Below are positions 1 to 11,989 of a stretch of DNA of 11,989 bases, piece after piece; position 1 is the first letter of the stretch; the number at the start of each line of letters is the position of its first letter. Below the pieces are notes generated by a model, which worked only from the letters and a program-made list of their open reading frames with translations, was not told where the DNA came from and did no database searches. The stretch comes from Thermoplasmatota archaeon (GTDB lineage Archaea; Thermoplasmatota; Thermoplasmata; RBG-16-68-12; JAGMCJ01). The stretch lies in assembly GCA_022848825.1 (NCBI GenBank), contig JAJISH010000308.1, positions 1 to 11,989 of the forward strand. Direction: 5' to 3'. The position numbers were made by a program, and so were the translations under genes.

Positions 1-2277
1 GTCCGCGAATGCACCGTCCACGGTTACTTCAGGTGGGGAAAGGATGTAGGAATTCGTCAGAAAGCCTTCCCTGATGAGCACCGTCGAGTTCGCGCCGACA
101 CTGTCGAGCCTGAGTCCGAAGGAGTGCGTCTGAGGCATGGAGGTCAACTGCGCCACTGCGAAGAGCGTGACGTTGCCCGTGAGCGGGCTCGAGGATGTGT
201 TCAGCTGGAACTGGGCTATGCCGCCAGCAACATCCGAGGTTCCCAGGAGAGAATCCGACGCGTCCCAAACGCCATTGACGTTCGAGTCCTGATACAGCGC
301 AACAGTGACAAGATCGTCAGAGAGGTTGCCCCGTGTGGAAAAATCGAGAGACAGGGTGCTCAGGGCGGTCGCCTGGACCCGCATAGTCAGGGAGAGAGCG
401 GGGAATTCCAGCTGCGTCACAACCTCCGGGGCCACGGTCTCGACATCCACTGTCAGTGCCCCGAGGTCCGTCTCCACTATCGCATCCCCCACATCCGTGT
501 TACCGAGGATGTCCATGGTCGCCAACAGCATTCTGGCGCCGTCGTTGGGAAGACTGAAGACCGCCTCAAGCTTGTTGTCCTCCACGGCGCAACTAGCGGA
601 CCCGTCCGGTCGGAACCCATGCCAGTTGTCCCTGCCGCCCGACGGGGCGAAGTCCATGGAGTCGCTTCCTGTGCACGAGTTGTTCCAGCCGCTGAGGCGC
701 ACGAGATCGTCCACGCCAAGATCGCCTGCCTCGTAGCCAGTCGAAGAGTCTCCGTCGCTGTCGATGAGTAGGAAGAGATTGTCGAGGCCTTCCTGCCCCG
801 CACCGTTGAAGAACGAGCCTTCTACTTCTGCATACACATACCCACGGTTGAGTTGCCTGAACAGCCGGTAGGAAACGATGTTGATATCTGTGTTTTCCAG
901 CTGATCTGAGGAATCGTCAAGGAATATCGGGGAGCTCCTGGTGGAGAGTTCAGACCAATCATCGAAGTCCCCGTCGATTTCGATTGCAGTTCCCGCCGGG
1001 GCCAAGAGCACCGAACCCAGCATGGGCATGAGAATGAGAAACGTGAGAAGAGCAGCCACTCCTACGAGACCTCGAGACCACCTCGACGGTCCTCTGGGAA
1101 CCTCCATGGGTCTCACCCTGCCCGCTCTGCCGTTAACCAGTCCATTACCGTTTATCAGGCCGTTGACGAGGCCGTTGACCCGCCCGACCCCGTTAACAAG
1201 TCCATTGACGAGGCCGTTGGTCCGCCCGATGCCGTTGACAAGTCCATTGACCCTTCCATTCACGAAGCCGTTGACTAGGCCGTTGGTCCGCCCGATGCCG
1301 TTGATGAGCCCTTTGCCAACGGACCTTCGGCTCAACATGTCCCGCTGACTGAGCGTGGCCATCTTCCTGATGTCCCTGACTCTCTCGAGAGTGGCTGACC
1401 CAATGGCCTTCCCATAGCACTCAACTGCTTCGTCCTGTCGACCGAGCTTTTCAAGAAGCTCTCCCTTGGTCTGCCACGCCATCTTGAGCGAGGAATCCAA
1501 CCTCAGGAGCGCATCGTAATGTCGAATGGCCCTCTCGATGGCGTCCGCGTCTTCGTCAGATATCTCTTCTCCCGGCTCTGGAACAAGGGAGACGTCCTCT
1601 TTGGACCGGAGCACGTTGAGGACTTCCAGCTTGTACTGCCCCTCCATCTCTGGATTGAGTTCAGAAGCCCTGTCGTAGCATTCGATTGCTTCGTCGAACC
1701 TCCCCAGCTCGACAAGGAACTCGGCTTTCTTCAGCCAAGCCCTTTCTAGCGTGGGGTCGACCTCAAGGAGTCTGTCGTAGTGACTGATCTGTTCCTCGAT
1801 TTTCTGGGCGCGCGGGAGTTCCTCTCCCTCCTGGATGCGCTTCCACCTCTCAAGGAAGTCCCTGCCCAATATCCTGGGTTCTTCCTCTTCCTCCCCGATG
1901 CTCTCGGGAACCTCTCGCTCGTCCAGCGGGATGTCCTTCTCAAGCTCTTCCAGAAGGCTGTCCAGCGATTCCATTTCGAGTTCCTTTCTGGCTGGCAGGA
2001 CCGTTCCGCAAGAAGAGCATCGTGTATCGTCAGTTTCCACAGAACTTCCACAGGCTGGGCAAACGAAGGGGAGGTTCTCCTGGAGGAACTGCTCCTCGAA
2101 AAAAACCTTGATTCTGGCCGCAAGCTCCCGCCCGACACCGGCGACCGTTGCGATGTCCTCGACATCCGCGGATAGGATCGAGTCGACGGAAGAGAATCCA
2201 TCCTCGATTAGGCTCTTCGCCCGTTTCTTGCCTACACCGGATATCTCGGAAAGGAGACTTATGAAGCTCTCTTCCAT
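1..2277 (-). CDS. HhH / zinc-ribbon / TPR protein with Asn-Gly repeats, one membrane helix and an ectodomain (3' end outside window)
   Basis: An open frame of 759 codons runs from ATG at 2277 off the left edge without a stop; an in-frame TAG lies eight codons upstream, so this is the first ATG. Visible order: two helix-hairpin-helix motifs (about 8-60; GVGKKRA and GVGREL); a zinc ribbon (C73, C76, C87, C90); an acidic linker; two TPR-like units (about 164-210 and 248-292); an Asn-Gly repeat run (323-383); a basic stretch (384-402); one hydrophobic helix (about 403-428); then a domain opening with DGDFDDW (435-441) and an acidic loop DSDGDSSTGY (507-516). By the positive-inside rule the first 400 residues are cytoplasmic and the rest outside. 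The outer part has five N-X-S/T sequons (N532, N651, N693, N702, N730) and two cysteines (C535, C563). HhH and zinc ribbons often bind nucleic acid and TPRs bind proteins; the actual role is unknown. Its TATA box suggests its own transcript, separate from the regulator gene upstream. Confidence 0.9.
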   Translation of the reverse strand, partial: MEESFISLLSEISGVGKKRAKSLIEDGFSSVDSILSADVEDIATVAGVGRELAARIKVFFEEQFLQENLPFVCPACGSSVETDDTRCSSCGTVLPARKELEMESLDSLLEELEKDIPLDEREVPESIGEEEEEPRILGRDFLERWKRIQEGEELPRAQKIEEQISHYDRLLEVDPTLERAWLKKAEFLVELGRFDEAIECYDRASELNPEMEGQYKLEVLNVLRSKEDVSLVPEPGEEISDEDADAIERAIRHYDALLRLDSSLKMAWQTKGELLEKLGRQDEAVECYGKAIGSATLERVRDIRKMATLSQRDMLSRRSVGKGLINGIGRTNGLVNGFVNGRVNGLVNGIGRTNGLVNGLVNGVGRVNGLVNGLINGNGLVNGRAGRVRPMEVPRGPSRWSRGLVGVAALLTFLILMPMLGSVLLAPAGTAIEIDGDFDDWSELSTRSSPIFLDDSSDQLENTDINIVSYRLFRQLNRGYVYAEVEGSFFNGAGQEGLDNLFLLIDSDGDSSTGYEAGDLGVDDLVRLSGWNNSCTGSDSMDFAPSGGRDNWHGFRPDGSASCAVEDNKLEAVFSLPNDGARMLLATMDILGNTDVGDAIVETDLGALTVDVETVAPEVVTQLEFPALSLTMRVQATALSTLSLDFSTRGNLSDDLVTVALYQDSNVNGVWDASDSLLGTSDVAGGIAQFQLNTSSSPLTGNVTLFAVAQLTSMPQTHSFGLRLDSVGANSTVLIREGFLTNSYILSPPEVTVDGAFAD
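1129..1311 (-). repeat. Asn-Gly tetrad/hexad repeat tract inside the HhH/TPR protein
   Basis: Codons 323-383 encode units of the type (L/F/R)-(V/I)-N-G mixed with hexads (I/V)-G-R-(T/V)-N-G. There are 14 Asn-Gly pairs within 58 residues (326-383). The block beginning IGRTNG recurs after 22 residues (328 and 350). At DNA level an identical 28-base stretch occurs at 1211-1238 and 1277-1304, 66 bases apart, which points to recent duplication or slippage. The tract lies between the TPR region and the basic segment before the membrane helix. It is poor in charge and regular in hydrophobic spacing, so it could be an extended repeat fold or a flexible tether. I recall similar runs in hypothetical proteins of thermoplasmatal archaea but cannot confirm this here. 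Confidence 0.9.
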
Positions 2278-2297: not shown

Positions 2298-2308
2298 GGA
2301 TATATACC
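2298..2308 (-). promoter_or_regulatory. TATA box for the HhH/TPR membrane protein gene
   Basis: TATATA at 2301-2306 is centred about 26 bases before the ATG at 2277. Archaeal transcription normally starts some 25 bases downstream of the TATA centre, so the transcript would begin at or next to the start codon and be leaderless. No Shine-Dalgarno match lies before this ATG, in keeping with that. The site shows that this gene is probably not just the tail of the upstream ATPase/regulator unit. Confidence 0.65.
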
Positions 2309-2347
2309 ATTTCTAGAACTGGGTAGGAACTCAGTCTGTTGGTTTTG

Positions 2348-2366
2348 GAACCGACTAGTACGGTTC
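2348..2366. promoter_or_regulatory. perfect inverted repeat, candidate operator
   Basis: GAACCG and CGGTTC form perfect 6-base arms around a 7-base centre containing ACTAGT. The dyad lies 12 bases after the stop of the winged-helix regulator gene and about 40 bases before the TATA box of the next gene. It could be a binding site for a dimeric winged-helix protein or a short hairpin at the end of the regulator mRNA. No T-run follows on the minus strand, so a classical terminator is less likely. The assignment is inference from position and symmetry only. Confidence 0.3.
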
Positions 2367-2378
2367 TGTGTTTATGTC

Positions 2379-3086
2379 CTATTCCAGTACTGTTCGGAAG
2401 GGGTCAACTGAGAGGTCCAGTACGGACTTGAACCGCGACCTCTGAATCTCGACCATCAACTCCGTATCCGATTGGCGGACGACCTTGGGCTCCAGTCCAT
2501 CGGTCTCCAACTTCCTAAGAATGTCCTTGCGGAACTCCTTCGCCCTCTTATAGTTCCGATCCTTCGCCCTCTTCAGTCCATCTGAGGGGAAGTACCTGAC
2601 AAACCTCCCGTCGGTCGTGCGAGAGATGAGATCGAGACCCTCCATTCGCTTGACGAGCCTTAGGATTGACTGGTCACTCGTGCTGAGCATCTTCGCTAGT
2701 TCCCTTTGAGAGAGTCCTGGCTGGCTCAGTATCGTGAGAAACAGCTTCTTGGCGGCCTCGTTGTTCAGCAGTTCCAGAAGCTCGCCATCCTTTTCGTCAA
2801 CGAGTCCCACAGGAGAGTATGTCACCTTGTTGCGGACATTTCTTTGGTTGATGTAGCCAGATTCCACTAGCTGTCGCAGGTGCCAAGCTGCGGTGCTCTG
2901 TGAGATGTCGTTTGCGACCGAGACCGTCTTGAGCGGGGATCCAGGATATCGGCACAGGAATGCGAAGAGCCTCTGCCGGACGGGGCTCATGAGGACGGAC
3001 TCCAGACCGGCTCTCTCCTCATCGTCCCCGCCAAGCATGACCTTCTCAAAGGCCTTGCCGACTCCCCTGGATTTACTTCTTCTCAT
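2379..3086 (-). CDS. tandem winged-helix transcriptional regulator
   Basis: A predicted DNA-binding regulator of 235 residues. It opens with a basic tail (RRSKSRGVGK). A first winged-helix domain covers about 28-92: a helix with SPVRQRLFAFL, a recognition-helix region QSTAAWHLRQLVESGYI (63-79), and a wing ending near VTYSPVG. A second covers about 109-167, with LSQRELAKML and SDQSILRLVKRMEGLDLI, then a wing RFVRYFPS. The last 65 residues are rich in Lys, Arg and acidic residues, with no recognised domain. The start at ATG 3086 was chosen because it overlaps the end of the ATPase gene by 14 bases and has GAGG three bases upstream; a longer frame from 3206 would lie wholly inside the ATPase gene, and its extra residues look out-of-frame. 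The ArsR/MarR-like fold is clear; target genes are unknown. Co-translation with the KaiC-like ATPase suggests that the ATPase controls or works with it. Confidence 0.88.
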   Translation of the reverse strand: MRRSKSRGVGKAFEKVMLGGDDEERAGLESVLMSPVRQRLFAFLCRYPGSPLKTVSVANDISQSTAAWHLRQLVESGYINQRNVRNKVTYSPVGLVDEKDGELLELLNNEAAKKLFLTILSQPGLSQRELAKMLSTSDQSILRLVKRMEGLDLISRTTDGRFVRYFPSDGLKRAKDRNYKRAKEFRKDILRKLETDGLEPKVVRQSDTELMVEIQRSRFKSVLDLSVDPFRTVLE

Positions 3087-3951
3087 ATTCCTCGATGATG
3101 TCTTCGATGATCTCGCTGGCCTTGATCCCCTCAAAATCGTCATCGGTGAGTTCCTTGAGAGCCCTGGAGAGCCGTGCCCTGACGTGAGGCGGGATCTTGT
3201 TCCCAACGATCTTCTTGAAGTCTTCTCTCAGTTTGTCTGGAATCTTCTTCGTCTCGACCTTCTTGTAGTTCCCCCTCTCGACTATGAGACCCAGACCTTT
3301 GATTATGCGGTAGGGATGCGCCAAATCGCTGTGCTTGCTGCTCCTGCATTTCACGATCTTGAGCGTTCGGCCCACTGCACCGTCAACTGGCCGGTATCTG
3401 AGATGAACCACGCAATCCGCAAGGTACATGGGTATGATCGTCTCGGGTCCCGAAAGGTCCCCTGACGAGCCGTGCTCCTCCAGCGTGCAGAGAACCGTTC
3501 CCACTTTCCGAGCCTGCTTCAATAGGAATCCGATCAGGTCTCTTCTCTCATACTGATCCTGGACCGACCACATGACCGGAGTCAGAGGATCGATTGAGAT
3601 GCGAGCGTTTGACCCGCCCCAATCCGCGACGAAGGATGGAAGCTCTTTCTTTATGAAGCTGGAGAACTCCTTTCCGGAAGCGTCGATGAACACGAGCTTC
3701 TCGTTGTCAAGGTAATCGAGTATCTCGCGCCACCCCATTTCGATGGCTTCCCTGATTATCTCGTCCTTGTTCTCGTCAAGGCTTACGAAGATGCCCTCTT
3801 GCCCCGCTTCCAGTCCCCTTCGGACGAACTGGGTGGCGAATGTGGTCTTGCCGGCGCCCGAGGCTCCAATCACGACCGTCGTGGAGTTCTCGTTCATGCC
3901 GCCGTCCAAGAGAGGATTCAGACCGTAGATTCCGCTCTTGATCTTCTTCAT
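3073..3951 (-). CDS. KaiC-like RecA-superfamily ATPase (single domain with helical tail)
   Basis: A soluble ATPase of 292 residues from the RecA/KaiC superfamily. It starts as KaiC domains do (IKSGIYGLNPLLDGG, 4-18). The Walker A loop is GASGAGKT (29-36, K35, T36), and SLDENKDEIIR (57-67) follows, whose D59/E60 sit where KaiC has its catalytic acidic pair. The Walker B strand ends at ISID (D121), and the KaiC-like ending is KCRSSKHSDLAHPYRI (201-216). Known archaeal single-domain relatives include the motility ATPase ArlH and many proteins assigned to signalling by context. About 65 further residues form a charged, probably helical tail with no family match I can name. There are no flagellar or arl genes nearby, so ArlH is unlikely. 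The gene heads a two-gene unit with the winged-helix regulator and probably regulates it by ATP-dependent oligomerisation; that link is inference. The ATG is placed by the TATA box about 26 bases upstream. Confidence 0.92.
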   Translation of the reverse strand: MKKIKSGIYGLNPLLDGGMNENSTTVVIGASGAGKTTFATQFVRRGLEAGQEGIFVSLDENKDEIIREAIEMGWREILDYLDNEKLVFIDASGKEFSSFIKKELPSFVADWGGSNARISIDPLTPVMWSVQDQYERRDLIGFLLKQARKVGTVLCTLEEHGSSGDLSGPETIIPMYLADCVVHLRYRPVDGAVGRTLKIVKCRSSKHSDLAHPYRIIKGLGLIVERGNYKKVETKKIPDKLREDFKKIVGNKIPPHVRARLSRALKELTDDDFEGIKASEIIEDIIEEYEKK

Positions 3952-3982: not shown

Positions 3983-4069
3983 TCTTTTGTCATGGATATT
4001 TGCCCCGAGAAGTCCTAGGGTCGGGACCTGGACCCAGCAATCTCAGGTTGCGTGAACTCCTTCGCGGGG

Positions 4070-4109
4070 AGCAAAAGGGTCTTTTACATCAGTCATCTAT
4101 CCCTTTGCT
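4070..4109. promoter_or_regulatory. interrupted inverted repeat around a weak TATA-like site, upstream of the zinc-ribbon gene
   Basis: Arms AGCAAAAGGG (4070-4079) and CCCTTTGCT (4101-4109) are complementary apart from one extra A. They enclose TTTTACATC (4082-4090), a weak TATA-like element that would place a transcription start near 4112, about 11 bases before the GTG at 4123. The symmetry round a presumed promoter could be an operator. A second small dyad, GGGTC/GACCC, lies at 4018-4035. The rest of the 171-base gap (3952-4122) shows nothing else I recognise. Confidence 0.25.
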
Positions 4110-4122
4110 GATATCCTTGCCC

Positions 4123-4422
4123 GTGAGATACTACTGCGAGAGATGCAAGAGAATGGCCAAGAAGGGGCCGACCTGTGCCGCTTGCGGGGGGGCTGTGACG
4201 CGTCACGATCTGAAGATGACGCGCTTCCGAGTCGTCTCCTTGGTCTGCTGGGCACTGGCGATTTTCCTCCTGTTCTGGCCGTTCCTTGCACCCCCGGAGC
4301 TTCTGGCGCTTTTCTATCTCGCGTTCCTCTTCATAGGCGTGGCCGTGGCGATGGAGTGGTTTGACGCAAGGGTCATAGCGATTAGAGTCCTCAGAGCCCT
4401 TCGCGAATCGAGAGGCCCGTAG
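4123..4422 (+). CDS. small zinc-ribbon protein with two membrane helices
   Basis: A hypothetical membrane protein of 99 residues. The N-terminus carries a zinc ribbon with C5, C8, C18 and C21 (CERC and CAAC spaced nine residues apart). Two hydrophobic helices follow (about 37-55 and 59-77), separated by APPE, and a basic C-terminal tail rich in Arg. Both ends are probably cytoplasmic, since Lys/Arg flank the helix pair on both sides. The start is uncertain. GTG at 4123 was chosen because it directly precedes the zinc ribbon; a TTG two codons earlier, or the ATG at 4153 (which would cut into the ribbon), are alternatives. A longer frame from a TTG at 4000 gives a leader without domain-like features. 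There is no clear Shine-Dalgarno site. The gene ends 75 bases before polC, which has its own promoter. I recognise no family function. Confidence 0.7.
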   Translation: MRYYCERCKRMAKKGPTCAACGGAVTRHDLKMTRFRVVSLVCWALAIFLLFWPFLAPPELLALFYLAFLFIGVAVAMEWFDARVIAIRVLRALRESRGP

Positions 4423-7853: not shown

Positions 7854-9023
7854 GTGAGAATCCTCCAGTTGTGCGTCAGGTTTCCGCCCGCTCCTGGGGG
7901 CGCTGAGACGCACGTACACTCGATCTCGAAGGAGCTAGTGAAGAGGGGTCACGACGTCACCGTTTTTACTTCGGATCTCTACACGGAGACGCCGTTCGTT
8001 CGGCTGACCGATGTGCCCGATACAACCGACGGCATACGGGTCAAGAGGTTCCGAGCGCACACGATGGGCGGAGAGATGCACTACGTCCTCGTTCCGTCCC
8101 TCTTGTGGAGATCGATCCGAGAGAAGGTCGATGTCGTTCATGCCCACTCATATGGATATTTCCACGTCAATGCCGCATTCCTAATGAGAAGACTGCGCGG
8201 TGTACCCTTCGTTTTCACTCCCCACTTCCATCCAGAGTGGTCGATGTGGGGCGGGAGCAAGAGGAAGATGCTGAGGAGGATCTATGACAGGTGGCTTGGG
8301 TCATGCATTTTCGATTCCGCGGACAGAATCATCGGCGTCTCGAGGGCAGAGATGAGCCTCATGAACGGTGGTCGCTTCGCGGAAGGGAGGACCACTATCA
8401 TACCGAACGGGATCTCGCCCGGGGACTTCGACCCGCCTCCAGATGGCCGACTGTTCAGAGAGCACTATGGATTGGGTGGGAAGGTCGTCCTGTTCGTCGG
8501 GCGTCTTGCGTCCAACAAGGGCCTGGACACTCTGGTGGATTCCATTCCAGGAGTGATCGCTGAGCATGATGACGTGAAGTTCGTACTCGTCGGGCAGGAC
8601 GAAGGGATGAGGGAGAGTCTGCTCAAGAGGGCGAACTCGCTGGGCGTATCGGATGCCCTCGTCTTCACGGGCCACATCACCGATGACCGCCTGTTCAGGA
8701 GCGCATTCGCCTCCTCCGATGTGTTCGTGCTCCCTTCCGAGTACGAGGCCTTTGGGATCGTTTTGCTGGAAGCGATGATGTGCGAGAAGCCCTGCATAGC
8801 GAGTGCCGTGGGCGGAACGTCAGAAGCCGTTGTCCAAGACGAGACCGGACTTCTCGTCGAGTACGGGAACGCTGGCGAACTCGCAGAGATGATAACTGGA
8901 ATCCTGTCAGACCCCCAGAAAGCGAAGGAGATGGGCAAGAGAGGGAGGGAGCGGGTCCTCAGGAAATTCACATGGGAGCGTGTTGCGGGGGAGATCGAGA
9001 AGGTCTACGAAGACCTCATCTGA
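7854..9023 (+). CDS. GT4-family glycosyltransferase (GT-B fold)
   Basis: A probable retaining glycosyltransferase of 389 residues that moves a sugar from a nucleotide-sugar donor to a glycan or lipid acceptor on the cytoplasmic side of the membrane. The N-terminal Rossmann domain has the GT4 glycine loop FPPAPGGAETHV (10-21), VVHAHSY (94-100) and TPHFHPEW (122-129). The linker has GVSRAE and IIPNGI (182-187). The donor-binding domain has VLFVGRLASNKGLDTL (212-227), FVLVGQDEG and the EX7E motif (E298, E306) in EYEAFGIVLLEAM, then VGGTSEAV and a closing helix. All key elements are present and the length is typical. The start is GTG 7854, since family similarity begins at once (RILQLCVRFPP). It converges on the methyltransferase gene with only two bases between the stops. 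The specific sugar and acceptor cannot be read from the sequence. Confidence 0.93.
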   Translation: MRILQLCVRFPPAPGGAETHVHSISKELVKRGHDVTVFTSDLYTETPFVRLTDVPDTTDGIRVKRFRAHTMGGEMHYVLVPSLLWRSIREKVDVVHAHSYGYFHVNAAFLMRRLRGVPFVFTPHFHPEWSMWGGSKRKMLRRIYDRWLGSCIFDSADRIIGVSRAEMSLMNGGRFAEGRTTIIPNGISPGDFDPPPDGRLFREHYGLGGKVVLFVGRLASNKGLDTLVDSIPGVIAEHDDVKFVLVGQDEGMRESLLKRANSLGVSDALVFTGHITDDRLFRSAFASSDVFVLPSEYEAFGIVLLEAMMCEKPCIASAVGGTSEAVVQDETGLLVEYGNAGELAEMITGILSDPQKAKEMGKRGRERVLRKFTWERVAGEIEKVYEDLI

Positions 9024-9025
9024 GA

Positions 9026-9817
9026 CTACATGACCTTCCGACACGACAGCGCGAGGTACCGACCGAGATATCTCATCTTCGGCAGGATATTCGCGATCGC
9101 ATCCAAACGCTCGGCGATGGCCCTCAATCTCGTGGAACCGCGCACAATCTCGTCGAGGGGACCCTCCATCTTGTCTGGGAAGAAATAGGATCCTCTGACG
9201 TCCTCGATCCTGAGGCCGTACCGCTCCAAAGATTTGAGGAGCGAAGAGACCGAACTGAATCTGTCGACGGGGACTGCTGAGAACTCCCTTTTGTGCTCTT
9301 CTTCGCTGAGGTAGTAGGGCCTGATGCCCAGTAGCCTGAACAGCATGAGCCTGTACCAGCTCGCCATGGGTACCGTGAGATGGATCGTTCCATCCCGCTT
9401 CGCGACAGCCGCCAGTTGTCCAATCGCTCCTTCCACATCATCGAGGTGCTCGAGAACCTCGGTACAAACCACGACATCGAAGGACCCGTCGCGGAAAGGA
9501 AGAGCCAAGGCGGATCCAAGTACGACATCCGCTCCTGAGCGAGCCTTGGCGGATTTGAGAACGTCCATGGACACATCGACTCCGACGCGGTTCCCGCCTA
9601 GATGCATCATAGTTGTTCCGTCACCGCACCCCACATCCAGGACCCTCCCCCCGCTCCTCACATGTGACCGGAGCATTTGCAGTGTCCTGACCAATCTAAG
9701 CCAGGGTGCCAGATGCAAGAAGTGAGAATCGTCCAGAGACGCATATCTCGGACCCCCGCTCATCGCTCGGGCACTCGTGCCCTGTGGTTCGGAGCGTCCA
9801 ACAAGGTCACTGTCCAT
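9026..9817 (-). CDS. class I SAM-dependent methyltransferase
   Basis: A methyltransferase of 263 residues using S-adenosylmethionine. Motif I is VLDVGCGDG (59-67), the ribose-binding acidic residue follows in VGVD (78-81), ALPFRDGSFD (105-114) covers the next strand, and VVCTEVLEHLDD (116-127) is typical of the Methyltransf_11 group. IHLTVPMASWYR (145-156) follows, and the remaining hundred residues probably form the substrate lid and C-terminal helices. The start at ATG 9817 was chosen because it lies four bases after the stop of the glycosyltransferase gene upstream and has GAGGATGA (9822-9829) as a Shine-Dalgarno site. A longer frame from 9907 would overlap that gene. Tight coupling to a GT4 gene suggests that it methylates a sugar or glycan intermediate, though small-molecule or lipid substrates remain possible. 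Confidence 0.9.
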   Translation of the reverse strand: MDSDLVGRSEPQGTSARAMSGGPRYASLDDSHFLHLAPWLRLVRTLQMLRSHVRSGGRVLDVGCGDGTTMMHLGGNRVGVDVSMDVLKSAKARSGADVVLGSALALPFRDGSFDVVVCTEVLEHLDDVEGAIGQLAAVAKRDGTIHLTVPMASWYRLMLFRLLGIRPYYLSEEEHKREFSAVPVDRFSSVSSLLKSLERYGLRIEDVRGSYFFPDKMEGPLDEIVRGSTRLRAIAERLDAIANILPKMRYLGRYLALSCRKVM

Positions 9818-9821
9818 CCGC

Positions 9822-10994
9822 TCATCCTCGGAGAGCCTTGCGATAGAGCTTAGCCAGTCTTTCGGTCGATTTCCGCCAACTGAAGTCCTGTGCCGATTCG
9901 AGCGCACCTTCCTTCAGTCTTGCCGCCAGGTCAGGATCTCCCAAGACGCTCAGGATCGCCTTGGCCAGTTCGTTCGGGTCGCCTGCCTTGGCTAGGAGAC
10001 CGTTCTCACCGTGACGGATGATCTCTCTCGTTGAGGGAACATCGCTCGTGATCACGGGCAATCCGCATGCCAGGTACTCGAATATCTTCAGTGGAGAGAA
10101 CCCGAAGTCGGCGTGAGGATACGGGGCAACCGCCACATCGCTTTCCACGAGGATGCGGGGTATCTCCTCGTGTTCGACGCTACCAAGGAAACTGACCCTA
10201 TCAACGATGCCGAGGCTCTTCGTCTGCGCTATCAGATGGCCGATTTCGTATTCCTTCGCACCACCCACGAGCAGTAACCTCATGTTGGCATTCTTGCGGA
10301 GAGCTATTGGGAAGGCCTGCAACAGCTGATCGACGCCGTGCCAGGGCCCCAGAGCTCCGACAAAGCACACGATGGAATCGCCTCCGGCATTGAGCCTATC
10401 ACGCACACCAAATGGTTCGACTCCAGGATTGAAAAGATCGAGGTCCACACCGTTTGGGATTATGCTGACCTTGTCTGCATCAGCCCCCCACTCGTCAATC
10501 GTAACTCGCCTGAGACTCTCGCTCACGGAGAAAGCGTGGTCGGCCCTCCGCAACGTCCGTTGGCACCACCACAAGGCCATCTGCCGATAGAGTCTCGTTG
10601 CCGCGATCCTCGACGTGAGGGCTTCCGTTCTTATCCAGTCATCGTCGATCTGTAGAATCGTGGGAATCCCTGCCTTGCGGGCGATGGCGATGCCCGACCC
10701 GCCAAAGAGGTATCCGCGGTCGTGCACGATGTCGAACTCGTGCTCCCGCAGCAAGGACCTGACCTTGCTCTTCGTGTCCCGCGTGAAGAACAACCTGTTC
10801 AACGGGACATCTTTCGAGAACACCCTGTGGTAGGTAATCCCCGCCTCGTGAGAGGGTCTGTTCTCATCCCTCCGGCAGATGAGATGGACCTCGATCCCCA
10901 AGTCGACGAGATTCTTCGCGAACTCGTGCTGATGAACGGACTGAGCCAGGGGCTCAGGGATCTTCACGGAGGGAGCCACCATGCAGACTCGCAT
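9822..10994 (-). CDS. GT4-family glycosyltransferase with a changed EX7E motif
   Basis: A second GT-B glycosyltransferase, 390 residues from ATG 10994. The N-domain opens with MRVCMVAPS and has FDIVHDRG (87-94) and ILQIDDDW (113-120). ADHAFSVSESLRR (151-163) and VSIIPNGVDLDLFNP (176-190) form the bridge. The donor domain has CFVGALGPWHGVDQLL (210-225), RLLLVGG (239-245) and FLGSVEHEEIP (269-279). In the catalytic region FGFSPLKIFEYLACG (297-311) the second glutamate is kept (E306), but the position eight residues before it is Gly298. This SPLKxxEY form recurs in a GT4 subgroup, so the enzyme need not be inactive. The start at 10994 fits the TATA-like site some 32 bases upstream, while the longer frame from 11015 would start too close to it. 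The gene is followed after four bases by the methyltransferase, with which it forms an operon. Sugar specificity is unknown. Confidence 0.92.
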   Translation of the reverse strand: MRVCMVAPSVKIPEPLAQSVHQHEFAKNLVDLGIEVHLICRRDENRPSHEAGITYHRVFSKDVPLNRLFFTRDTKSKVRSLLREHEFDIVHDRGYLFGGSGIAIARKAGIPTILQIDDDWIRTEALTSRIAATRLYRQMALWWCQRTLRRADHAFSVSESLRRVTIDEWGADADKVSIIPNGVDLDLFNPGVEPFGVRDRLNAGGDSIVCFVGALGPWHGVDQLLQAFPIALRKNANMRLLLVGGAKEYEIGHLIAQTKSLGIVDRVSFLGSVEHEEIPRILVESDVAVAPYPHADFGFSPLKIFEYLACGLPVITSDVPSTREIIRHGENGLLAKAGDPNELAKAILSVLGDPDLAARLKEGALESAQDFSWRKSTERLAKLYRKALRG

Positions 10995-11021
10995 AATTCC
11001 CAGAGACAAGTCCACCCAGCT

Positions 11022-11032
11022 CTATTTACTTT
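11022..11032 (-). promoter_or_regulatory. TATA-like element for the GT4/methyltransferase operon
   Basis: On the minus strand AAAGTAAATAG is centred about 32 bases before ATG 10994. This would give a leader of only a few bases, and no strong Shine-Dalgarno site is seen. It shares a 110-base divergent region (10995-11104) with the promoter of the membrane protein gene. Confidence 0.45.
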
Positions 11033-11073
11033 TTGGCCTGAATGGGAGCGCGAGCCAGATGCTGCCCAATAAG

Positions 11074-11082
11074 GTTAAAGTA
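11074..11082 (+). promoter_or_regulatory. TATA-like element for the GT-C-like membrane protein gene
   Basis: GTTAAAGTA is centred about 27 bases before ATG 11105, fitting a leaderless transcript. The bases directly before the ATG (CAAGACAA) hold no Shine-Dalgarno match. Confidence 0.45.
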
Positions 11083-11104
11083 CTCCCTCCTGATTTCAAG
11101 ACAA

Positions 11105-11989
11105 ATGAAAAAGTCGACCGCTTCCGCACTTCTGGCGATATTCCTCATCGCCATGTTCATCAGGTTGTTCCCGCTGGTGAGACACCTGTTCTGGGGAGCG
11201 GACGTCGGCGAGTACTACTACATCAGCACGCAACTCGTGGCGAATGGGTCGATATCGGGAACCTACGCGGGATGGGGTTTTGCATATCCGCTGTTCCCGG
11301 GCATGGAGATCGTCGTCGCCAGCGCGTCACTGCTTGGGATGGACACGTCAATGGCCCTATCGTTGATGATCCCGATTCTGGCGTCCCTCATCGTGTTCCC
11401 CATCTTCATGATGACGACCGAGATCACGGGCGATGCCAGAGCTGGACTGATCGCAGCGGCGTTCATCGCAGTGGCAATGCCCCACGTCTATGCCACCTCC
11501 CATCCAATGCCTGCAGCCATGGGAGATCTGCTCTTCGCCACATGTCTACTGCTCTTCCTGAAGTGGCTGAGGAATCCCAAGTTCGGGCTTCTGCTGTTCC
11601 CTGTCACACTCGTCCTCATCGTCACACATCACCTTTCGACGTATTTCCTTCTCATCTCCCTCATATCCGGAGTGTTCCTGGTCCAGCTTCTCAGGAGCCG
11701 CACCTCGAAGGAAGTGCTGATGAGGGAGTTGACGTATGTGCTTTTCACAGCCGTCACTGCCGCTCTCTTCTGGTTCTTTGGGGCACCAGGTTTCGCCGAA
11801 GAGGTGGTCTCCAGCGAGAGCGTCTTCCTCTCTCCCTTCCTCTTGGGTCTGCTCGTCCTCGTGCTAGTGGCCGCTTCTCTCGTAGTGTATGCAAGGAGGA
11901 AGCTCCTGCCCAATCTCGTGCTCAGATATCCGACGTTCAGAAGGGCGATGGCGACGTTCACCGCCGTGTTCGTGACATCCCTGTCGATA
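11105..11989 (+). CDS. polytopic GT-C-like membrane glycosyltransferase (3' end outside window)
   Basis: The open frame runs 295 codons from ATG 11105 to the window edge with no stop. The protein is very hydrophobic, with a short basic start (MKKS), a first helix at about 7-25 and some eight more segments to residue 295 (roughly 66-78, 84-104, 113-130, 141-154, 160-175, 178-196, 208-226, 242-263). The loop after helix 1 has GADVGEYYY (31-39). GT-C enzymes, including STT3/AglB oligosaccharyltransferases and PMT-type mannosyltransferases, keep acidic catalytic residues in this loop. THHLSTYF (174-181) and PHVYATSHPMP (126-136) resemble blocks in predicted archaeal GT-C proteins. It would take a lipid-linked sugar and add it to a protein or glycan on the outer face. 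The divergent GT4/methyltransferase operon supports a glycosylation role. The missing C-terminus, where an acceptor-binding domain would lie, prevents a finer call; a non-catalytic polytopic protein is possible. Confidence 0.75.
   Translation, partial: MKKSTASALLAIFLIAMFIRLFPLVRHLFWGADVGEYYYISTQLVANGSISGTYAGWGFAYPLFPGMEIVVASASLLGMDTSMALSLMIPILASLIVFPIFMMTTEITGDARAGLIAAAFIAVAMPHVYATSHPMPAAMGDLLFATCLLLFLKWLRNPKFGLLLFPVTLVLIVTHHLSTYFLLISLISGVFLVQLLRSRTSKEVLMRELTYVLFTAVTAALFWFFGAPGFAEEVVSSESVFLSPFLLGLLVLVLVAASLVVYARRKLLPNLVLRYPTFRRAMATFTAVFVTSLSI

Follow-up and report, generated by a model that had tools for sequence, protein, structure and literature searches.

What does an archaeal surface protein do with a helix-hairpin-helix (HhH) domain, a zinc ribbon and tetratricopeptide repeats (TPRs) on the inner side of its membrane helix? 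The question is raised by a gene on contig JAJISH010000308.1 of the Thermoplasmatota archaeon assembly GCA_022848825.1, analysed here over its whole length of 11,989 nucleotides (the window; G000:C233 in our numbering). The gene runs off the start of the contig. Its product carries an Asn-Gly (NG) tract before the helix, and such proteins are called NG proteins below. The safest statement is that the gene forms a conserved unit with genes for a KaiC-like ATPase and a winged helix-turn-helix (wHTH) regulator. Our searches of the open-access literature listed no earlier account of such a tract or such a triad.

A conserved unit of KaiC, winged-helix and surface-protein genes

The three genes of the unit are the following.

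1..2277, minus strand: NG-tract transmembrane surface protein; 759 codons visible from an ATG at 2277, 3' end lost at the contig edge
2379..3086, minus strand: winged-helix regulator, probably with two tandem wHTH domains; HTH_24 at 9.8e-11, MarR_2 at 4.2e-9, HTH_20 at 5.3e-6 (just below its cut-off)
3073..3951, minus strand: single-domain KaiC-like ATPase with an intact Walker A, GASGAGKT; PF06745 at 1e-36, 126.9 bits against a cut-off of 26.6

If the regulator starts at the ATG at 3086, its gene overlaps that of KaiC by 14 bases; a longer frame runs from 3206. The Walker B of the KaiC-like protein reads ISIDP, and its Walker A has the form GxxGAGKT seen in all listed variants, which cover 55 of 82 KaiC homologues. 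At all 20 orthologous loci of the window's own order (L004, L005, L008 and L089-L105) the surface gene lies directly downstream of KaiC and wHTH and is co-directional with them. These loci were selected by the surface protein, and their surrounding gene order is largely syntenic too. The wHTH gene of L097 was located separately (G090:C111:31639-32241), and in L091 (11537-18557) a gap of about 6 kb, close to a masked stretch, interrupts the KaiC matches.

A sharper test of linkage was anchored on KaiC. It covered 60 further loci with homologues 49-76% identical, from other families or second copies within the order, drawn from part of the KaiC matches listed; a wHTH match was recorded, and an NG protein was counted if it lay within 4 kb and had the same orientation. 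The wHTH match was present at 46 of these loci and the NG protein at 22, compared with none of either at 20 control loci around KaiC homologues of 37-41% identity. Downstream room was below 2.5 kb at 14 of the 60; of the 46 with at least that much, 20 had the NG protein. Twenty of the 22 loci with KaiC and an NG protein carry the wHTH match too, and the remaining two (L172 and L177, family f16) have a diverged wHTH only (1.2e-9 and about 5e-5). Two loci of family f20 (L106, L107) carry KaiC and an NG protein in altered gene order. With these, 24 loci outside the first set (stretches of 3-20 kb) span seven families, f7, f16, f17, f18, f20, f21 and f25, where f25 membership rests on G051, a genome that has contigs in common with an f17 genome. 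Contigs G051:C58 and G109:C69 give identical match coordinates in two genomes of different families and are probably a single contig binned twice. Five other neighbours from the window, DNA polymerase D included, were looked for and found at none of the 24 loci. In 20 KaiC-linked chains that were read, a helix is predicted after the NG tract in every one, and a motif starting [IV][DN]G follows within 60 residues in 16; the others end earlier or read otherwise.

The link is also seen as fusion. In L107 (15270-20000) a KaiC domain (4.1e-24) comes first, followed by zinc ribbons, an NG tract, a helix and an LTD. The proteins P0122 (2202 aa) and P0123 (2142 aa) likewise start with KaiC (2.2e-24 in P0122, a precomputed match in P0123), behind which stand a zinc ribbon, TPRs, an NG tract, a helix and FG-GAP repeats. 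Their Walker A reads GPSGVEKE, and that of L107 GPTGLEKE; with these alterations the fused KaiC domains are probably inactive, in contrast to the stand-alone KaiC. The window's own genome holds, on contig C201, a frame of 2471 residues with its start cut, which aligns to P0122 from residue 139 at 36% identity. Since the alignment begins inside the KaiC domain of P0122 (3-238), the C201 protein is probably another fusion of KaiC to an NG protein.

KaiC-based signalling modules are defined by links of neighbourhood or fusion between KaiC and input and output domains. Both kinds of link are found here, to an output domain (wHTH) and to candidate input domains. Such ATPases have been proposed as signalling hubs of archaea, as cited in passages of two papers (PMC5847659, PMC13286277). 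The candidate input partner at this locus, a giant surface protein that spans the membrane and combines an NG tract with exchangeable inner modules, is one of which we found no description in the literature searched. As excerpted, a study of Haloferax volcanii describes a KaiC homologue, CirA, that overlaps with the regulon of the transcription factor CsmR (PMC13286277). The coupling of KaiC to a transcription factor is similar; the excerpt mentions no transmembrane surface partner, and it gives CsmR peaks at 65 genes, compared with a conserved element at one place per genome here (PMC13286277).

The KaiC homologue ArlH is thought to act in archaellum assembly. By analogy, the KaiC-like protein might be an ATPase for the assembly or insertion of the surface protein, with the wHTH protein controlling its supply. 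Membership of the KaiC family and the GxxGAGKT motif would suit such a role, as would a weak match to the ArlH profile (3.7e-10, 39.9 bits against a cut-off of 215) and a six-helix protein, prepilin-peptidase-like by reading, that is encoded downstream of the surface gene (12667-13605 in L004) and recurs at 15 of the 20 own-order loci. This last gene was found at 0 of the 24 loci elsewhere, and no search aimed at ArlI- or ArlJ-like partners was made. We regard an assembly ATPase as improbable.

Among 250 genomes of the class Thermoplasmata, a query with the ectodomain matches 91, KaiC at 1e-50 is found in 75, and the NG codon pattern occurs in 113, some of these by chance, with low counts for a reversed control. 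The query with the HhH domain and zinc ribbon matches 180, many of them weakly and probably through unrelated HhH proteins. Of 68 genomes with a KaiC of about 50% identity or more, 65 also carry the ectodomain (kinship ignored) and three have KaiC only; 156 have neither. Outside the class the NG pattern mostly hits other repeats among the places listed. The window's genome has eight ectodomain matches, and their inner ends comprise HhH-zinc ribbon-TPR, zinc ribbon/TPR, TPR-rich, a probable KaiC fusion and the NG tract only; in one, on contig piece C281, no inner module was seen. Contigs G000:C383 (L002) and G000:C452 (L119) are probably two parts of a second HhH-zinc ribbon-TPR-NG gene, with L006 as its orthologue. 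The NG tract as a KaiC-specific feature was considered and rejected, since family f8 and others lack such a KaiC and yet have both tracts and ectodomains. The f8 genomes (G002, G105 and G118, for example) contain many NG tracts and ectodomain matches and no KaiC of this kind, which suggests that the tract has another or a more general partner.

The surface protein from inside to outside

A sequence-only reading of the window had arranged the surface protein as HhH pair, zinc ribbon, acidic linker, TPRs and Asn-Gly repeats inside, one helix, and a domain of DGxFDDW type outside. Pfam, hydropathy and AlphaFold confirm this layout. The parts are listed from the N-terminus, with predicted local distance difference test (pLDDT) values where relevant.

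2098..2256, minus strand: HhH domain, residues 8-60; HHH_5 at 1.5e-14, pLDDT about 90
1996..2064, minus strand: zinc ribbon, residues 72-94, CPACG...CSSCG; Zn_ribbon_3 at 6.1e-6
1813..1989, minus strand: acidic linker, residues 97-155, partly of low confidence; sequence and AlphaFold
1354..1812, minus strand: TPR solenoid, residues 156-308; TPR_8 at 1.6e-13 in two stretches, the best at 179-210 (Pfam)
1129..1302, minus strand: Asn-Gly tract, residues 326-383, with 14 NG; predicted disordered, pLDDT about 30
1003..1080, minus strand: membrane helix, about residues 400-425; hydrophobic peak at 407-425, AlphaFold helix at 400-424
460..993, minus strand: predicted CBM9-like beta domain, residues 429-606
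31..459, minus strand: second beta domain, residues 607-749, resembling a beta domain of Bacteroides-type sialidases (sialidase-N-like)

The reading depended on the HhH and zinc-ribbon matches and on a helix at 403-428, and all three hold in profile searches, hydropathy, flanking charge and AlphaFold. The Zn_ribbon_3 match, at 26.0 bits, falls slightly under Pfam's threshold of 27; its four cysteines are kept in all 19 sequences of an alignment of 18 full-length orthologues with the window protein. Throughout this alignment the flank of the helix is positive on the N-terminal side (+3 to +6) and neutral to negative on the C-terminal side (0 to -5), the positive-inside pattern expected if the modules lie inside and the ectodomain outside, and IDGDFDDW follows directly after the helix in the window protein. 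A Foldseek search with the whole 759-residue model returned mainly TPR and antibody-like rows. The NG run varies from 11 to 20 NG across the 19 proteins; its membrane-proximal end looks best conserved, with NGNG[FL][TV]NGR or nearly so in most of them.

The missing end is supplied by the full-length relative in L004 (8001-12359; Thermoplasmata archaeon isolate RS_14_3), which is 94% identical and 1452 aa long. Pfam adds to it, beyond the part seen in the window, an LTD at 1035-1127 and two DUF11 stretches, and a structure model of its last 713 residues predicts a string of beta domains ending in a helix. Adhesins, pilins and integrin alpha chains have stalk domains similar to the DUF11 part, a common arrangement that is neutral as to function. 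The likeness of the first beta domain to CBM9 (1i82) is one of predicted fold, at 16% identity, and CBM9 is absent among the Pfam matches listed (the best 25 of 30 and the best 25 of 26). In all 18 full-length orthologues the C-terminus consists of [IV]PE[FL] followed by a helix and then a short tail, which is net positive in 17, L090 being the exception. With such an ending, the ectodomain of about 1000 residues is probably anchored on both sides. PEF-CTERM is absent among the profile matches listed for three own-order chains (the best 25 of 35, 25 of 31 and 13 of 13), and the best CTERM match listed is JDVT-CTERM (E 0.0047, below cut-off). Known DUF11/LTD surface proteins with a sorting-like C-terminus share with this family the two DUF11, the LTD and the [IV]PE[FL]-helix-basic tail; they differ in that the window's family has a modular cytosolic N-terminus of 400 residues and an NG tract, and no CTERM model above cut-off among the matches listed. 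A short tail resembling VADxVP follows the last helix in L004, L089, L100 and L105 and is common to three families.

The ectodomain had also been called glycosylatable. Candidate sequons are enriched in L004, with 26 in 994 aa against 10.1 +/- 2.9 on shuffling; the truncated ectodomain of the window has 5 in 334 aa against 3.1 +/- 1.6, where enrichment is unclear. The 18 full-length ectodomains have 12-26 sequons, compared with 7.2-10.6 on shuffling, and for three of them (L092-L094; 12-14 against about 10) enrichment is again unclear. N-terminal to the NG tract, each of the 19 proteins has 0-1 sequons, the tract itself being excluded from the count. Near the surface gene, at 7854-11989, the window encodes a methyltransferase, two glycosyltransferases of the group-1 type and a multi-helix protein that matches no Pfam family; the last of these is kept at 15 of the 20 own-order loci. 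The gene between those for KaiC and DNA polymerase D (4000-4422) encodes a small protein that has two helices as well as CxxC pairs.

The HhH domain, the zinc ribbon and DNA

The HhH domain and zinc ribbon had been thought possibly to tether DNA, a replication factor or a transcription factor to the envelope. HHH_5 matches the window protein, and it is above cut-off in all ten of the KaiC-linked NG proteins scanned outside the own-order set (10 of the 24), so that the fold is a usual part of such proteins as judged from their sequences. The closest solved HhH sequences are a haloarchaeal L32e extension (2.3e-8), topoisomerase V and UvrC; these would be compatible with a tether, with the reservation that the best of them is an extension of a ribosomal protein.

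The hairpin GxG motifs, whose conservation is the canonical mark of a DNA-binding HhH, are unevenly kept. In the aligned set hairpin 1 has GxG in 11 of 19 sequences and hairpin 2 in 9, with both intact in 8, the window protein among them. One or both are thus lost in 11 sequences that are otherwise conserved, and as these losses are confined to families f4 and f6, canonical contact with DNA cannot be essential to what those families keep. In the ten KaiC-linked relatives from other families GxG is kept in hairpin 2 in eight, which favours a tether, in hairpin 1 in three and in both in two, so that eight have lost at least one; the second glycine of hairpin 1 is kept in nine. Residues 1-62 are net negative in all 19 aligned sequences, and the net charge of the HhH domain in the ten relatives is -2 to +4. 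The DNA polymerase D gene adjoins the unit at 19 of the 20 own-order loci, as a tether to replication would lead one to expect, and at none of the 24 elsewhere; a functional link to the polymerase was rejected as synteny. Taken with the GxG losses and the charge of residues 1-62, this leaves the tether weakly supported, and we consider it very improbable.

The idea that all KaiC-linked NG proteins carry the HhH domain did not stand up either, since two members from f16 seem by reading to be without it. In L177 a frame upstream of the f16 KaiC gene (2674-3138) has an end that reads HhH-like, and the module may be a separate chain in that family.

The promoter and a candidate trans-envelope circuit

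Between the stop of the wHTH gene and the ATG of the surface gene is a spacer of 101 bases with two elements.

2298..2308, minus strand: TATA-like box GGTATATATCC, 20 bases from box to ATG
2347..2365, minus strand: candidate operator, inverted repeat AACCG-N7-CGGTT plus CC

The position of the box makes a leaderless transcript likely. In the five genomes of the window's genus, searched with up to 3 mismatches, matches with 0-1 mismatch occur solely at the promoter site (5/5); ten other sites all have 3 mismatches, against 8 for a reversed-pattern control. Family f4 has a different element in the same position, once in each of nine genomes, and in f2 the element occurs once in each of five, with no second site at 2 or 3 mismatches in either family. 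Overall, 14 of the 19 genomes have a single copy of their element, and in the other five the promoter site is the best by far. An alignment from f4 (13 rows, nine genomes) has a conserved stretch from the element to the TATA-like box. A wide wHTH regulon was rejected on these counts. The uniqueness of the site argues against such a regulon and falls short of proving an operator; the informative point is that an element is conserved at a set place in the promoter next to a wHTH gene. One of the 3-mismatch sites has an identical sequence in four of the five genus genomes (G000:C262, G014:C9, G123:C23, G035:C2).

The best explanation of the locus, held tentatively, is that the surface protein is a trans-envelope receptor for a KaiC/regulator switch that acts on the receptor's own promoter. 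The protein is predicted to be anchored by the membrane helix that follows its inner 400 residues, and a second helix, at the C-terminus, probably anchors it too. The inner 400 residues, with HhH, zinc ribbon and TPRs, are most likely the part that docks with or senses the KaiC ATPase, the regulator or both; gene linkage and the fusions are the ground for inferring that these modules talk to KaiC. Outside, the CBM9-like, LTD and DUF11 domains may bind material of the envelope or the cell's exterior, or stretch against it, and the outside state would pass inward through the helix to the KaiC/regulator pair. The pair would then bind the candidate operator and set transcription of the surface gene through the conserved intergenic element, which is the ground for proposing feedback, and the outcome would be an autoregulated trans-envelope circuit. 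The earlier suggestion that an outside signal is carried to a DNA-bound complex fits better than the tether, with the change that the route would lead through a separate KaiC-like ATPase and winged-helix regulator, encoded directly upstream and unnamed in that suggestion.

The main rival is a mainly structural protein, an adhesin or coat, of which KaiC and the wHTH regulator only set the amount, while the cytosolic modules anchor or assemble it and do no signalling. By itself this leaves 400 conserved inner residues unexplained, together with the HhH found in every KaiC-linked relative scanned and the KaiC domains fused to the inner end. We think it unlikely, though a serious competitor.

Several observations weigh against the receptor explanation. 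Of the 60 KaiC loci, 38 have no NG protein in reach, about 12 of them owing to an early contig end, and among the loci listed several KaiC/wHTH pairs are followed by unrelated genes and no NG protein. No KaiC or wHTH gene lies upstream of the window gene's close paralogue (L006; C452/C383), and within 8 kb in L006 neither gives a match. Taken alone, the C201 fragment does not match KaiC in Pfam at a threshold of 0.001. The NG proteins of L172 and L177 start with FAEDFMxKW, and by reading they appear to have no HhH domain. Twenty-six genomes have the ectodomain without a KaiC of this kind, which suggests that many relatives work without KaiC and that the tract also serves a purpose apart from it. 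A unique site is to be expected for almost any pattern of 19-23 bases.

Reportedly, Makarova, Galperin and Koonin (2017) described KaiC-like ATPases as archaeal signalling hubs. To our knowledge, little has been described of what feeds such hubs from outside the cell. The triad is present in ten Thermoplasmata families (f1, f2, f4, f6, f7, f17, f18, f20, f21, f25), and an eleventh, f16, has it with a diverged regulator. The surface protein is the obvious candidate for the input and its own promoter for the output. A more general proposal, which we put forward as doubtful, is a Thermoplasmata class of trans-envelope receptors. These would be giant surface proteins, anchored twice, whose inner modules (HhH, zinc ribbons, TPRs or an inactivated KaiC) can be exchanged for one another and are joined to the membrane by a flexible Asn-Gly comb; they would report the state of the surface to a KaiC that gates a wHTH regulator with a single genomic site, the receptor's own promoter. 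The triad suggests how these archaea may connect the cell surface to gene control, and the wider NG-tract family may be a notable part of their surface.
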